DNA from: Lysobacteraceae bacterium
GTDB lineage: Bacteria; Patescibacteriota; Patescibacteriia; JAACEG01
Assembly: GCA_011682665.1 (NCBI GenBank)
Contig: JAACEG010000006.1
Coordinates: forward strand, 1 to 11,891
DNA: 11,891 bases
Reading direction: 5' to 3'
Positions 3,023-10,239 of this stretch are shown piece by piece (position 1 is the stretch's first letter; each line of letters opens with the position of its first letter). The position numbers and the translations under genes are program-made. The notes below the pieces were generated by a model. It saw only the letters and a program-made list of their open reading frames with translations. It was not told the origin of the DNA and did not search any database.

Positions 3023-3084
3023 AAAATTATACAAACATATAAACATTTAAACATAATTTAAAATAATATAATTCAGAAACTTTA

Positions 3085-3142
3085 AATTTTACTTGCCCCG
3101 TAGGGAACTTATTTTACTTTGGGGAAAATTGAAATTTTGAAT
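3085..3142 (+). repeat. 58-bp dispersed repeat, copy 2 (plus orientation)
   Basis: This is the plus-strand counterpart of 1211-1268 (about 80% identical in reverse complement). It contains GCCCCGTAGGGAACTTATTT, and its CCCC/GGGG ends (3095-3098 and 3121-3124) could pair as a hairpin. It lies in the predicted leader of the 167-residue gene. Confidence 0.7.
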
Positions 3143-3904: not shown

Positions 3905-5077
3905 ATGAGTTTATTTAGTTCAGATTATAGTTATTTAGGAATCAATCTAGGAACTTCCAGCGTTAAATTAGTGGAATTAGCAAATAATAATGGAGTTCCT
4001 CATTTGCTTACTTATGGTTTTACAGAGCAATCAATTGATATTATTAAAGATGATTCTGAAGCGGCTAGAAGAGAAATTGTAAGGATTTTAAAACAGTTAT
4101 GCAATGAAGCGCAAGTGAGTAGCAATAAAGTAATTACGGCTTTACCTACCTTTTCTGTTTTTTCTTCTGTTATTAGTATGCCAAGAATGAGTAAAAAAGA
4201 CTTATCTTCCGCTGTCCTTTGGGAGGCAAAAAAGATTATCCCAATGCCTTTTGAGGATATTATTTTGGATTGGTATGTGCTCAATGAAGATTCAAATACG
4301 CAATCTTCCAAGTTTAAAGGTTTTTTTAAAAGAATCAAAAAAGAAGCAAATGAAGAAAAAAAAGATAATAATAAAAAAGATATAAAAAATTCATTGTCTA
4401 ATAATCAAAAAAAAAATGAGGATATTAAAATTCTTTTAACAGGAGCGCCTAAAAATTTAGTTACAAAATATATTGATATTTTTCAAAGAGCTAATTTGAA
4501 TTTGTTAAGTTTGGAAACTGAAATTTTCGCTTTAATTAGAGCATTGGTCGGGAATGATAAGTCAACTTTAATTATTGTTGATATGGGAGCAGCTTCAACA
4601 AATATTTCCTTAGTAAAGAATGGTTCAGTTATTATAAATAGGAGTATTGAATTGGGCGGAAAAAATGTTACCAGCGAAATTAGCCAAAATTTGAATGTCG
4701 CGTTTGAAAGAGCGGAACAATTCAAATTTGATATTGGGATTAATGCGGAAGGACAAGCAGATAGTTCAATCTTTAAATCAATAGAAAGCACTATGGTTCC
4801 TATTGTGGATGAAATAAAATATACAATTGATTTTTTTAAAAATCAATTGAATTTTAATGAATCAGGAAATAATAATATAGAAAAAATAATTTTAACTGGT
4901 GGATCATCTTCTCTTACTTATTTGCCCGAGTATTTATCTAAGAAATTAAATAAAAAAGTTTATATCGGAGATCCTATGGCTAGAGTAATCTATCCTGATG
5001 ATTTGAAATCTATTATTGAGGAGATTGGATCTAAATTGTCAGTTTCCGTAGGTTTGGCAATGAGAGAGATAGTATAA
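3905..5077 (+). CDS. pilM: Type IV pilus inner-platform ATPase-like protein PilM
   Basis: PilM is an actin/FtsA-fold cytoplasmic protein that binds the N-terminal tail of PilN and anchors the pilus alignment complex. The 390-residue product has the phosphate-1 motif GINLGTSSVKLVEL (12-25), phosphate-2 IVDMGAASTNISLV (224-237) and the adenosine motif ILTGGSSSLTYLPEYLSKKL (329-348), in the expected order. LWEAKKIIPMPFEDIILDW (105-123) matches the conserved PilM segment that follows the first motif. Unusual is a Lys/Asn-rich insertion at about 131-173 between subdomains, which accounts for length beyond the usual 350 or so residues. The ATG at 3905 puts the phosphate-1 motif at the normal distance from the N-terminus. 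No Shine-Dalgarno is visible. pilN follows after a 352-bp gap filled by palindromic repeats. Confidence 0.95.
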   Translation: MSLFSSDYSYLGINLGTSSVKLVELANNNGVPHLLTYGFTEQSIDIIKDDSEAARREIVRILKQLCNEAQVSSNKVITALPTFSVFSSVISMPRMSKKDLSSAVLWEAKKIIPMPFEDIILDWYVLNEDSNTQSSKFKGFFKRIKKEANEEKKDNNKKDIKNSLSNNQKKNEDIKILLTGAPKNLVTKYIDIFQRANLNLLSLETEIFALIRALVGNDKSTLIIVDMGAASTNISLVKNGSVIINRSIELGGKNVTSEISQNLNVAFERAEQFKFDIGINAEGQADSSIFKSIESTMVPIVDEIKYTIDFFKNQLNFNESGNNNIEKIILTGGSSSLTYLPEYLSKKLNKKVYIGDPMARVIYPDDLKSIIEEIGSKLSVSVGLAMREIV

Positions 5078-5101: not shown

Positions 5102-5401
5102 CAATTTTCAATCAATGATTTAATTTTCAATTTTGAAATTATTATTTTTTATGTAGGAGCTGGTGACGAGAGCCGTTTCTACTGCGATTTTCATCTTTTG
5201 GTCAAATTTTCTTCAAATTTTTTTACCTTACCTTAGGGTAGGCTAAAAAAAATATTTAAAAAATTTGTCTCAAAACCTAAAAATTTTTACCCCGTTGCCG
5301 GCTGGCTAACTGGGGTCGTTACGAAAACGCTCTCGTCACCAGCCCCTATTTAAAAAAATTAACAATTTTTTATTGTTTGAAAATTGAATCATTGAAAATT
5401 G
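5102..5401. repeat. Nested 300-bp imperfect palindrome between pilM and pilN
   Basis: Outer AT-rich arms at 5102-5130 and 5377-5401 are reverse complements except for a 4-base insertion and one mismatch (core TGATTyAATTTTCAA). They lie at nearly equal distance (23 and 28 bases) from a GC-richer palindromic element at 5154-5348. Further TTTTCAATTTTCAATTTTC-type repeats extend the arms outward to about 5091 and 5420. The rest of the 352-base gap holds no gene. Confidence 0.7.
5154..5348. mobile_element. MITE-like palindromic element E1 (no transposase)
   Basis: The 20-bp terminal inverted repeats (5154-5173 and 5329-5348) begin TAGGRGCTGGTGACGAGAGC and match at 19 of 20 positions. The ends can be read as a TA dinucleotide flanking GG(A/G)GCTGGTG..., which would fit TA target duplication. 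The core 5176-5286 is about 91% identical to 6905-7015 in element E2, with 52 identical bases at 5200-5251 centred on CCTTACCTTAGGGTAGG. The right arm has an extra 30-bp GC-rich hairpin (5287-5316). At 195 bp it codes for nothing, so any movement would need a transposase from elsewhere. Confidence 0.65.
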
Positions 5402-5429
5402 GTTGAAAATTAAAAATTAAAAATTATTT

Positions 5430-6863
5430 ATGCCAATAAATTTACTGCCTAAAAATTTTCAAGAAAAAGAAAAAGAAGAAATACAAAAAAGAAAAAAAAT
5501 GATTAAAAATATTGAATTGCGTGTTCCAAAAAATAAATTAAAAGTAAAACATACTGAAAAAAGTAAAGGTAATTTTTTTTCTAACTTTTTTTATCCCCTT
5601 TTTTTTAATAAAAAAAAAGAAAAAAATAGTAAACTTATCAATGAAGAAAAAGAAAAATTTTTAGAAGAAAAAAAAAGAAAAGAAATAACTGATTTTTTAA
5701 AAAATAAAAAAGATATTAAATCAGACGCAAAAAAAGAAATATTTAATTCAGCAACGGCAGCGACTAAAACTAATAGTAAAAAAAATGATTTAGCAACAAA
5801 GCCTGCTATTAAAAAACAATCTTTTTGGCAATGGTTTTTAGGCAAAAAAACAACAGAGAATTTTCAAACAAACAATCTAAAAACACAGTTTAATGATTTT
5901 GATAAAAATCGTAAAAAATTTGACAGAAATGGCACTGAAAAAACATCAGAAGAAAAATCTTTTTGGCAAAAAGGAAAAATTAAAGAAAAAAAGATCTTTT
6001 CAAACGAAGATAATAAGGCGTTTCAAGAATCAAAAAAGAAAACAAAAAAGAAAATTATTGAAAAAAAAAAGAATAATTATAAGAAAGAATCTTTTTGGCA
6101 AAAACTGTTTGGAGAAAAAAAAGAAAAAAATAATAAAAAAGATAGTTCTAAAATTAATAAAATTCAAGTAAAGAATAAAGAGAAAAATAATAATAAAACA
6201 AAAGAGAAAAAGTTAAATATTTTAGCTAAAAGTAAAAAGAAACACAGAATTAGAAATTTTTTTCATAAAAAGACTGAAATAGATTTCATAGATGGAGAAT
6301 TAATTGCTTCGGCTAAATTAAAAATTAAAGAAATGTCTTTGTCTATTATTTTTGTTTTATTTTTTTCTTTAATTATTATTTTCTCTATATATATGTTGGT
6401 TAATTGGTATCAGTATTTAGTTATAGAAAAATCCGTTAGGGCAGAAAAAAAATTACAAAGTTTAAAAAAAGACATAGATTTTTATGAAATAAAAAAGAAA
6501 GAGGCTTTGAATTTTCAAAAAAAATTAAAAGCGATTAGTTATTTATTAAGCAAACACATTTCTTGGAATAATTTTTTTGATACTCTTGAAAAAATTACAT
6601 TGCCGGATGTTTATTATAAAAATATAAGCGTTGATTATAATGGTAATGTTTTTATTTCAGCGGAAACAAACAGTTTTAAAAAAATTTCAGAACAATTATT
6701 GGTTTTTCAAAATAATAAAGATTTGATTAAATCAGTAAAAATAGATACAGCTGAATTAAATAGTGAGGGAGAAGATAATAACAAAATGAAAATAGTTAAA
6801 TTTAACATAGTATTAAAAATAAATAAAAACGCTTTTTTTTATAAAGATTATGATGAAGGATAA
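5430..6863 (+). CDS. pilN: PilN-like pilus alignment protein with long Lys-rich cytoplasmic region
   Basis: PilN is a one-pass membrane protein whose N-terminal INLLP motif docks into PilM and whose external domain pairs with PilO. The protein starts MPINLLPKNF, an excellent PilM-binding motif, which also fixes ATG 5430 as the start. One transmembrane helix lies at about 303-325 (SLSIIFVLFFSLIIIFSIYM), followed by a short coiled coil (334-370) and a PilN-type globular domain (about 371-470, with DVYYKNISVDYNGNVFISAE). Typical PilN has about 20 residues between the motif and the helix; here there are nearly 300, of which I count 84 lysines in the first 300 residues. This linker carries three SFWQ motifs (131-134, 177-180, 221-224), two followed by a WF/LF-G-K-type tail, plus FF-rich patches at 49-59. 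Total length is 477, against about 180-220 usual. The DNA has long A runs, including ten at 6061-6070. Confidence 0.85.
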   Translation: MPINLLPKNFQEKEKEEIQKRKKMIKNIELRVPKNKLKVKHTEKSKGNFFSNFFYPLFFNKKKEKNSKLINEEKEKFLEEKKRKEITDFLKNKKDIKSDAKKEIFNSATAATKTNSKKNDLATKPAIKKQSFWQWFLGKKTTENFQTNNLKTQFNDFDKNRKKFDRNGTEKTSEEKSFWQKGKIKEKKIFSNEDNKAFQESKKKTKKKIIEKKKNNYKKESFWQKLFGEKKEKNNKKDSSKINKIQVKNKEKNNNKTKEKKLNILAKSKKKHRIRNFFHKKTEIDFIDGELIASAKLKIKEMSLSIIFVLFFSLIIIFSIYMLVNWYQYLVIEKSVRAEKKLQSLKKDIDFYEIKKKEALNFQKKLKAISYLLSKHISWNNFFDTLEKITLPDVYYKNISVDYNGNVFISAETNSFKKISEQLLVFQNNKDLIKSVKIDTAELNSEGEDNNKMKIVKFNIVLKINKNAFFYKDYDEG

Positions 6864-6884
6864 ATCCAACGCTCTTCTACTTAT

Positions 6885-7045
6885 TAGACCTGTTGCGTAA
6901 TTAATTTCTACTGCAATTTCCATATTTCGGTCAAATTTTCTTCAAATTTTTTTACCTTACCTTAGGGTAGGCTAAAAAAATTATTTGAAAAATTTGCCTC
7001 AAAATCTGAAAATTTCGTTACAAAACTAATTACGCAACAAGTCTA
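6885..7045. mobile_element. MITE-like palindromic element E2 (no transposase)
   Basis: The terminal inverted repeats TAGACYTGTTGCGTAATTA (6885-6903 and 7027-7045) match at 18 of 19 positions, again with TA at both extreme ends. The whole 161 bp folds as an imperfect palindrome around CCTTAGGG (6960-6967). The core 6905-7015 is about 91% identical to element E1, including 52 identical bases (6929-6980), but the termini are unrelated to those of E1. It sits 21 bp after the pilN stop and ends 99 bp before the pilO ATG. There is no open reading frame. Confidence 0.65.
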
Positions 7046-7144
7046 TTATTTGAAATATACAGGAAGATTATTTAAAACTATTCATCGCAATAGCAAAGCT
7101 GTTGAATATTGAAAGCGCTAGATAAAATTAGTTTAATTTTTTTT

Positions 7145-7774
7145 ATGCTCTTAGAAGATTCCAATATAAAAAGTAAATTATTAAAATTTTTTATTAAATA
7201 TTTTAATTATTTTTTATTTTTAATAGTTATTATTTTTTTTATAGGTTTTTATTTTATTTTTTTAAAACCAAAACAGAACAAGATAAACAGGATTGAAAAT
7301 AGCGGTGTTTCTCAAAGAACAGAAACTTATGAGCAAAATATAGAATATTTTAATAAAATTAAAAGTTTCATAGAGGAATATGAAAGTATAAGCGACGAAG
7401 ATAAAAAAACTGTAAATTTAATGTTTCCTGATAAGTTAGATTATCCGCAATTATTTGCCCAAATGGAAAGTTTGATAAAAAAAAATGGATTTATATTAGA
7501 CAAAATCAGCTTATCTCCAGAAAATAAAAAAAATGAAATAAATAATTTAGATAAGAATAAAGAGAAAATGCCTGATTTTATAAATAAGGTTAATGTAAGT
7601 ATAGTCATTGAAGGTGTAGAAAATTTTGCTGATTATAGAAGAATGTTAAATATGTTTTATAATAATCTTTTGTTAATGGATGTTGATTCAATTAACTATT
7701 CGGCTTCTACTGGCGGTTCTTATTCAATTAATTTAATAAGTTATTTTTTTAAGACAGAAAATTCAGATAGCTGA
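7145..7774 (+). CDS. pilO: Type IV pilus alignment protein PilO
   Basis: PilO pairs with PilN in the inner-membrane alignment complex linking PilM to the pilus. The 209-residue product has a short cytoplasmic head, one membrane helix (about 20-40, very Phe/Ile-rich), a coiled-coil stretch (41-85) and a ferredoxin-like C-terminal domain. The block VSIVIEGVENFADYRRMLNM (151-170) followed by NNLLLMDVDSINYS (173-186) is typical of PilO. ATG 7145 is preferred. A TTG 36 bases upstream in frame would add 12 residues, but it has no better context and lengthens the tail before the helix. The gene ends in TGA, the only TGA stop seen here. It lies directly after pilN in order, separated by element E2. 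Confidence 0.88.
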   Translation: MLLEDSNIKSKLLKFFIKYFNYFLFLIVIIFFIGFYFIFLKPKQNKINRIENSGVSQRTETYEQNIEYFNKIKSFIEEYESISDEDKKTVNLMFPDKLDYPQLFAQMESLIKKNGFILDKISLSPENKKNEINNLDKNKEKMPDFINKVNVSIVIEGVENFADYRRMLNMFYNNLLLMDVDSINYSASTGGSYSINLISYFFKTENSDS

Positions 7775-10131: not shown

Positions 10132-10239
10132 TTGTCATTCCCGCGAAGGCGGGAATCCCAAATTTTGAATAAACAGGAGATTCCCGCCTTCGCGGGAATG
10201 ACAAATAGATGCGGGAATGACAAAAAAGCGGGAATGGCA
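10132..10239. repeat. REP-like palindrome of the GTCATTCCCGCG type with partial copies
   Basis: A perfect 26-bp inverted repeat (10132-10157 and 10179-10204), starting TTGTCATTCCCGCGAAGG, surrounds a 21-bp loop. Each arm is itself a hairpin (CCCGC/GCGGG). Two decaying partial units, GCGGGAATGACA (10211-10222) and GCGGGAATGGCA (10229-10239 plus flank), follow in tandem. The sequence closely resembles the dispersed ATTCCCGCG...CGCGGGAAT repeats known in many bacteria (for example the dRS3 repeats of Neisseria) and is strikingly GC-rich against its surroundings. It sits between pilB and the receiver gene and could act as a bidirectional attenuator. Confidence 0.85.

Follow-up and report, generated by a model that had tools for sequence, protein, structure and literature searches.

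Introduction

Miniature inverted-repeat transposable elements (MITEs) that have inverted ends and target duplications and whose transcripts form stem-loops are well established (PMC2229807, PMC10969869). Among them, the Correia/NEMIS, ERIC and RUP elements, as portrayed in these accounts, are approximately 100-200 bp long, contain no transposase gene, possess terminal inverted repeats, are flanked by target duplications, often have TA at their ends and give rise to transcripts forming long stem-loops (PMC2229807, PMC10969869). The non-autonomous Tn3-derived inverted-repeat miniature elements (TIMEs) are described as inserting into AT-rich DNA with duplications of 5 or 6 bp, as occurring in mosaic forms and as sharing 38-bp ends (PMC4133298). 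Repetitive extragenic palindromic (REP) sequences and REPINs, which go together with RAYT enzymes, are presented as palindromes with conserved mismatches, through which the hairpins are recognised strand-specifically, and as having many intergenic copies and no internal enzyme (PMC8266576), and the Rickettsia palindromic elements as long stem-loops reported in RNase P RNA and tmRNA genes (PMC2229807). Here, two palindromic elements, E1 and E2, were analysed in a stretch of 11,891 nucleotides (contig JAACEG010000006.1 of assembly GCA_011682665.1; hereafter the window), together with the family to which they belong. A narrow search of the literature on small mobile elements of Patescibacteria found little.

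The family shares the listed features of the Correia/NEMIS, ERIC and RUP elements but, unlike them, is spread through a whole class, combines a single conserved core with three or more classes of tips (T1, carried by E1; T2, carried by E2; and T3), shows paired change of its T2 tips and a strand-specific constraint, and had no partner transposon in the genomes scanned. With TIMEs it has in common a non-autonomous nature, AT-rich targets, duplications of 5 or 6 bp and mosaic forms; however, its ends vary while its core is conserved, and the Tn3 transposase was unmatched in the 20 genomes searched for it. With regard to Tn3-type ends, a GGG start is apparent from the sequence alone. Palindromes with conserved mismatches, a strand-specific structure, many intergenic copies and the lack of an internal enzyme are shared with REP/REPIN sequences, and computed folding and covariation suggest a strand-specific imperfect hairpin of the REPIN type; in contrast to REP/REPIN sequences, which measure tens of bases, the present element is about 157 bp long, has target duplications and shows no association with Y1. 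The likeness to Rickettsia palindromic elements is one of description, not of sequence comparison, and includes one copy in an RNase P RNA. The family is therefore a variant of MITE-like elements, its unusual part being a strand-specific fold with covarying ends, and the stronger finding is that of a hairpin family, spread through the class, in which a rule of pairing appears to govern how the ends evolve. In our estimation E1 and E2 are probably (at about 0.6) two copies of one old non-autonomous MITE-like transposon family of Patescibacteria, which would move by the mechanism set out in the Discussion.

The two elements and their family

Alignment of the 111-base cores of E1 and E2 gave 102/111 identical positions, including one identical run of 52 bases, and the original prediction, which had been made from the window sequence and had described one core bearing two different matched end pairs, was confirmed on both counts: the ends of E1 (GGAGCTGGTGACGAGAGC left, GGGGCTGGTGACGAGAGC right) match each other, as do those of E2 (GACCTGTTGCGTAATTA left, GACTTGTTGCGTAATTA right), which are unlike those of E1. 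Terminal inverted repeats are present in the element family. No open reading frame (ORF) of at least 60 amino acids overlaps either element and no transposase gene lies inside. On folding, z scores of -7.68 (5154-5348, E1) and -8.17 (6885-7045, E2) were obtained, with 0/200 shuffles as stable in either case. The optional side hairpin of E1 (Table 1) has no counterpart in E2, as read from the sequence; side hairpins differing in sequence were seen by eye at the same element junction in some copies from other genera (L081, L144 and L173).

A covariance model built from 33 elements was used to survey a sample of 380 genomes from the class of the host at a match threshold of E 1e-5 or better, which identified the family in 55 of them, distributed over 50 of 291 genera and 33 families; at most seven candidates were scored per genome, so that copy numbers from this survey are lower bounds. 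The typical element length is about 157 bp. When E1 was used as a query against its own genome (G000, the source genome of the window), 91 matching pieces were obtained, several being parts of one copy, and E2 matched 7 of 57 genomes, its own among them. A search of named genomes with the core pattern returned 29 stretches, all in records titled Parcubacteria, Paceibacterota, Patescibacteria or unassigned bacterium, while the same pattern gave 0 matches in viral contigs. The core is thus found in dozens of places rather than in the two from which it was described. Copies sit mostly between genes.

Scans for the T1 and T2 tips, allowing up to 3 mismatches, were carried out in nine genomes. T1 tips were matched 77 times in G000, three times in G001, once in G004 and not at all in the other six, while T2 tips were matched 10 times in G000, 22 in G001, 19 in G002, 20 in G004, 26 in G005, 8 in G016 and once in G037, with 0 matches in the remaining two. 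These counts indicate that E1 represents the form amplified in G000 and E2 the commoner form in its relatives. The third class, T3, occurs in other genomes, with 50 tip matches in G049, a genome rated 100% complete.

Two side observations concern where copies lie. Contig edges fall inside element copies in G000 (C3, C12, C97, C100 and C107) and also in contigs of G001, G002 and G005; since contigs start or end inside copies, the element probably breaks these assemblies. In addition, a T2 element lies inside an RNase P RNA gene (L076 1505-1660; G004:C19:17136-17291), which was matched by RF00010 at E 1.7e-46 with the insert, the insertion point being shortly before ACA.A..CCGGCUUA.

Strand-specific fold

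When elements were oriented by the core sequence alone, the better-folding strand was the one reading ...CGTAACGAAATTTTCAG...GCAGTAG... in 62 of 63 elements (the exception being L020), and the same strand folded better at 26/26 sites in further genomes belonging to the class, oriented from the model and with one weak match (L223:1913-2131) left out. In an alignment of 46 elements the paired cells comprised 2214 Watson-Crick, 238 G·U, 42 A·C and 80 other combinations, counts that include L082 in reversed orientation and, owing to the shared ancestry of copies, overstate independent events. The resulting G·U to A·C ratio of 5.7 changed to values from 3.4 (-3) to 0.5 (+3) when partners were slid by 1-3 columns. 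Counted as distinct genome-column-pair states, which likewise include the reversed L082, there were 89 G·U vs 24 A·C among inner pairs and 28 vs 11 in the tips (p=0.0095), the T2 tips contributing 25 vs 8; the strand bias is shown mainly for inner pairs.

One-step changes within genomes, counted without L082, included 18 A>G vs 1 T>C and 14 C>T vs 8 G>A, and in the tips alone 10 changes making G·U vs 3 making A·C. Cytosine deamination would not explain the excess of A>G. In the 33-row alignment 95.8% of cells pair, compared with 82.9% after shuffling and 34.7-54.8% after sliding, and compensatory change was found in 38 of 60 pairs, with 15 of the 16 tip-stem pairs among them; in the core arms, mismatches are retained from one family to another. 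The better fold of one strand, together with the tolerance of G·U far above A·C, suggests that a single-strand fold is selected.

A conserved fold with class-wide spread would also suit a structured RNA or mRNA hairpin, such as a terminator or stabiliser, that serves gene regulation in the host and is dispersed only secondarily, and many copies are indeed only tens of bases away from the end of an ORF, with E1 and E2 inside the pil cluster. We regard this explanation as rather improbable, as elements occur in either orientation between tandem ORFs: among 88 rows compared with ORFs, a count that includes rows of class 'other', 55 lay between tandem ORFs, 33 facing the same way and 22 the opposite way (p=0.18, which leaves room for a weak preference), with 13 between divergent and 9 between convergent ORFs, 10 without a flank on one side and one inside an ORF, a row with poor ends that is perhaps a chance match. 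Furthermore, no Rfam 15 family reached the gathering score for the element in the window, and across four loci that score was reached by RNase P RNA only, the gene surrounding one copy; sub-threshold matches over a copy at these four loci were to two miRNA families, in L076 only. Host transcripts would meet both strands of the element, and the strand-specific constraint therefore seems to act most simply on element propagation.

Target duplications and insertion

Duplications at the element boundaries were compared with shuffled expectations for the rows assigned to a tip class; 25 of 89 extracted rows, placed in class 'other', lie outside the T1 and T2 statistics, many having a misplaced boundary and a few being probable chance matches. 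For T1, an exact 6-bp duplication was found in 9/22 copies (shuffled 3.4) and one within a single mismatch in 17/22 (shuffled 7.1), neither count being equalled in 2000 shuffles, and the duplicated sequence varies from copy to copy. For T3, an exact 5-bp duplication without a fixed TA was found in 11/24 end pairs (shuffled 0.66; 0/2000), a set in which two pairs share one end and four carry the other core described below. For T2, a 5-bp duplication within one mismatch was found in 19/41 (shuffled 12.8; 3/2000). The duplications are thus clearly 6 bp for T1 and 5 bp for T3, and probably 5 bp for T2.

These lengths bear on the IS630/Tc1 type of transposase that had been suggested in the original prediction from the TA edges. 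Taken as an explanation of its own, this would make the elements MITEs of the IS630/Tc1-mariner type, with TA duplicated by a transposase that targets it and with E1 and E2 each modelled on one of two related TA-type insertion sequences. TA is indeed present at both outer edges of E1 and of E2, and the two edge bases match in 35/36 T2 copies (the T1 set of 34 in this edge-base comparison includes some spurious 36-bp pairs). However, a 2-bp TA duplication is the rule for IS630/Tc1, and the TA edges of E1 and E2, being flanked by 6-bp and 5-bp repeats, are the ends of longer repeats and not a 2-bp TA duplication alone. Given in addition the variable 6-bp duplications of T1 and the 5-bp duplications of T3 without a fixed TA, an IS630/Tc1 origin is highly improbable.

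In G001, a genome of the same genus, neither E1 nor E2 is present at the orthologous positions of the pil region, but the spacer corresponding to E1, which contains TATTTA, aligns loosely, and the pilN-pilO gap of 16 bp is not a clean empty site. Neither this comparison nor the number of places with the core, both of which had been named as possible refutations of the original prediction, refuted it. Nesting was observed at G000:C3:3976-4012 (L087), where a T1 tip stands directly after TAATTA within a T2 tip and is followed by the core and a T2-type right end, an apparent case of insertion followed by core-core recombination. Short forms were also seen: a 40-bp T1 palindrome at L092 236-275 (G000:C50), read by eye, could be a deletion between two TCGTCAC direct repeats, and others occur in G001, G004 and G005, internal deletions having left short palindromes in several genomes.

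Exchange and pairing of tips

The modular nature of the family, as had been proposed originally, was borne out by one core with different tips, one tip with different cores and duplication lengths specific to the class. In a tree of 78 cores, which has few columns and many unresolved forks, the T1 label requires 5 changes, 2 of them forced by well-supported branches. T1 tips are found on two core lineages, the core of the genus and that of another lineage (G000:C101, L096), and a T1-like tip accompanies the own core of G004 at G004:C4:7715-7879, with an exact TAACTA duplication; the latter core was read by eye and stands outside the 78-core tree. The T1 tip pair of E1 itself is a visible case of class change. 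Conversely, a second palindromic core, 172-223 bp long, is bounded in G049 by four pairs of T3 ends whose inner sequence is unchanged (Table 1); the family model left this core unmatched at E 1, whereas core-A copies in the same loci were matched at about 1e-25.

The left and right T2 tips (40 elements, first 16 bp) are identical at 0.917, compared with 0.835 in within-genome shuffles (0/1000 as high). Copy-by-copy paired change, as originally claimed for tips around a constant core, is thereby demonstrated for the T2 tips taken together, but not inside the recent T1 burst. Matched tips of this kind could also result from template-switch correction of quasi-palindromes or from end-to-end gene conversion, in the absence of any selection on the fold. 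The closer match of T2 tips within a copy than between sister copies is what such correction would produce, and the internal deletions leaving short palindromes point in the same direction; there is, however, no obvious reason why correction should, on one strand of the element, retain G·U in preference to A·C, and core-arm mismatches are retained across families. We consider this explanation unlikely.

Opposing evidence and the search for a mobilising enzyme

Several results weigh against the reading of E1 and E2 as copies of a transposon family mobilised in trans, beginning with the tips and duplications and including the shared ancestry behind the cell counts above. Within genomes, the tips are less conserved than the core arms in 5/5 groups with at least three aligned copies (for CAIMIV, with 15 copies, 0.843 vs 0.938), a pattern not usually expected where a sequence-specific transposase reads the ends; L082 is outside these conservation counts. 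Left and right T1 tips (20 elements, 10 bp) are identical at 0.885 vs 0.896 when shuffled, i.e. without excess, and their pairing is non-significant at 16 bp (66/1000) and in slight excess at 20 bp (25/1000). Nor is there a bias in the states of the T1 tips (G·U 3 vs A·C 3), and those of G016 tips run the other way (2 vs 4). For T2, exact 5-bp matches (3/41 vs 2.4 expected) are not above chance, and 8 bp likewise shows an elevated number of position matches (7/2000 shuffles as high), so that the length of the T2 duplication is not certain.

To these are added the results of searching for the enzyme. Tip scans detected no transposon with T1 or T2 tips in the nine genomes, leaving the suggestion of full insertion sequences carrying either tip without an example, and none with T3 tips in 12 genomes, where ORFs were listed in 2 of 20 T3 stretches and the T3 tips of G049 were fetched in part. 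Reading 60-260 bp inward of solo tips revealed no autonomous element. The fetched stretches contained 78 solo tips, 38 of them without an ORF of 100 amino acids within 600 bp inward, and for 41 ORFs inward of solo tips the Pfam families listed, 25 of 32 in one set and 25 of 31 in the other, were those of host genes and included no transposase. The Tn3 transposase (PF01526) was found in 0/20 genomes. Neither Y1 (PF01797; 31/55 element-bearing vs 171/325 other genomes, p=0.66) nor the reverse transcriptase RVT_1 (PF00078; 32/55 vs 154/325, p=0.15) was significantly associated with the element. In all, searches for DDE_Tnp_1, Tn3, Y1 and RVT_1, with IS630, rve and other transposase families not searched, identified no mobilising enzyme, and an enzyme acting in trans and not flanked by the tips would be the simplest inference.

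The Y1 result bears on a mechanism like that of REPINs and RAYTs, in which an HUH (Y1) transposase recognises the folded single strand in trans, as TnpA-REP acts on REP hairpins. A strand-specific hairpin with conserved arm mismatches is what the cited description of REP recognition would lead one to expect (PMC8266576). Against this, target duplications exist, and besides the lack of association no Y1 match was obtained in G000, G004, G005, G037 or G049, which makes such a mechanism quite unlikely. Alternatively, the folded strand could be an RNA copied by a reverse transcriptase, the element being a bacterial retroelement resembling short interspersed nuclear elements. This would account for the RNA-style covariation with G·U tolerated on one strand, and reverse transcriptases are common in the class (186/380 genomes). 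We nevertheless hold it to be very unlikely, as RVT_1, in addition to lacking a significant association, was unmatched in G000, G001 and G005, and fixed duplications of 5-6 bp suit a DDE-type cut better.

PF01609 (DDE_Tnp_1) matched one gene in the nine genomes, a member of the IS1634 family in G001 (L202 1312-2841, G001:C46) with an open frame of 509 amino acids. Its likely ends, GGGTCACCCA as judged by eye, are unlike T1 and T2, and it was rejected as a source of the elements. The gene seems to interrupt another, which we take to be radical-SAM-like from its CxxxCxxC motif.

Sequence context

The source genome is Patescibacteria-like and comprises 678,970 bases in 109 contigs. Besides parB and a gene of the relA/spoT kind, the window contains the type IV pilus region in which E1 and E2 are located (Table 1); the start of the pilO-position gene is placed later in G001. 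Other repeats were noted in the window. Hairpin repeats of the cattcccgcgaaggcgggaat type and the ccccttttagggg type lie at 10135-10201 and 1-230, and repeats of the ccccttttagggg type also adjoin an element copy at L096. A 91-bp inverted repeat pair (1211-1301 and 3052-3142), 80% complementary, flanks the relA/spoT gene.

Table 1. Coordinates of E1, E2 and neighbouring genes in the window, and of the second-core copies in G049
Feature	Sequence	Position	Strand	Remark
E1, hairpin element, T1 tip class, 191 bp	Window	5156..5346	-	Strand with conserved fold
E1 left target duplication TATGTA	Window	5150..5155
E1 right target duplication TATTTA	Window	5347..5352		5/6 identical to left copy
E1 left tip, T1 class	Window	5156..5173	+
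E1 right tip, T1 class	Window	5329..5346	-
Shared 111-bp core in E1	Window	5176..5286
E1 optional side hairpin ACCCCGTT...AACTGGGGT	Window	5289..5316		By eye from sequence
E2, hairpin element, T2 tip class, 157 bp	Window	6887..7043	-	Strand with conserved fold; family model match 6887-7043 on minus
E2 left target duplication TATTA	Window	6882..6886
E2 right target duplication TATTA	Window	7044..7048		Exact
E2 left tip, T2 class	Window	6887..6903	+
E2 right tip, T2 class	Window	7027..7043	-
Shared 111-bp core in E2	Window	6905..7015
pilM-like gene	Window	3905..5077	+	Upstream of E1
pilN-position gene	Window	5430..6863	+	Between E1 and E2; named by gene order, without pilN Pfam match
pilO-position gene	Window	7109..7774	+	Downstream of E2; named by gene order, without Pfam match
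Second-core copy, G049	L233	779-961
Second-core copy, G049	L235	627-809
Second-core copy, G049	L235	1815-1986
Second-core copy, G049	L239	1371-1593

Discussion

The mechanism that we propose for this MITE-like family combines a conventional insertion with an unusual constraint. Copies are flanked by a fixed short target duplication of 6 bp for T1, 5 bp for T3 and probably 5 bp for T2, the staggered cut presumably being made by a DDE-type enzyme that is supplied in trans and recognises the outer bases of the tips. Computed folding and covariation show the whole element to form one end-to-end hairpin, in which the tips make up a variable paired base stem, the core the conserved and imperfectly paired arms, and a variable paired apical stem with an optional side hairpin the remainder. 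The statistics show a structural constraint on one strand with no significant dependence on orientation to neighbouring genes, and the folded strand, whether single-stranded DNA or RNA, may be needed for propagation. If so, a one-sided change in a tip would survive mainly where the other side changes to match, and the survival of matched changes would explain paired tip change with a constant core. Tips and cores do re-associate, for which the likely route would be recombination between the cores of neighbouring or nested copies, as one chimaera suggests.

The interpretation first placed on E1 and E2 is partly supported by these results, and its notion that separate transposases may read the different ends agrees with the duplication lengths differing between classes, although the tip scans revealed no transposon bearing any of these tips. 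A bolder formulation, which we advance only tentatively and consider somewhat unlikely, is that of class-wide mobile hairpins in which the heritable unit would be the strand-specific fold and not the end sequence; tips would drift in matched pairs and switch class, the imperfectly paired core would be kept, and the implied enzyme would act on a folded single strand (RNA or DNA) and leave fixed 5-6 bp duplications.

Its presence in 55/380 genomes, with copies in gene clusters and at contig ends, makes the family a genuine component of such reduced genomes. Should it be folding rather than sequence that rules how the ends evolve, the family would be a direct exception to the usual view of MITEs as fixed-end deletion products.

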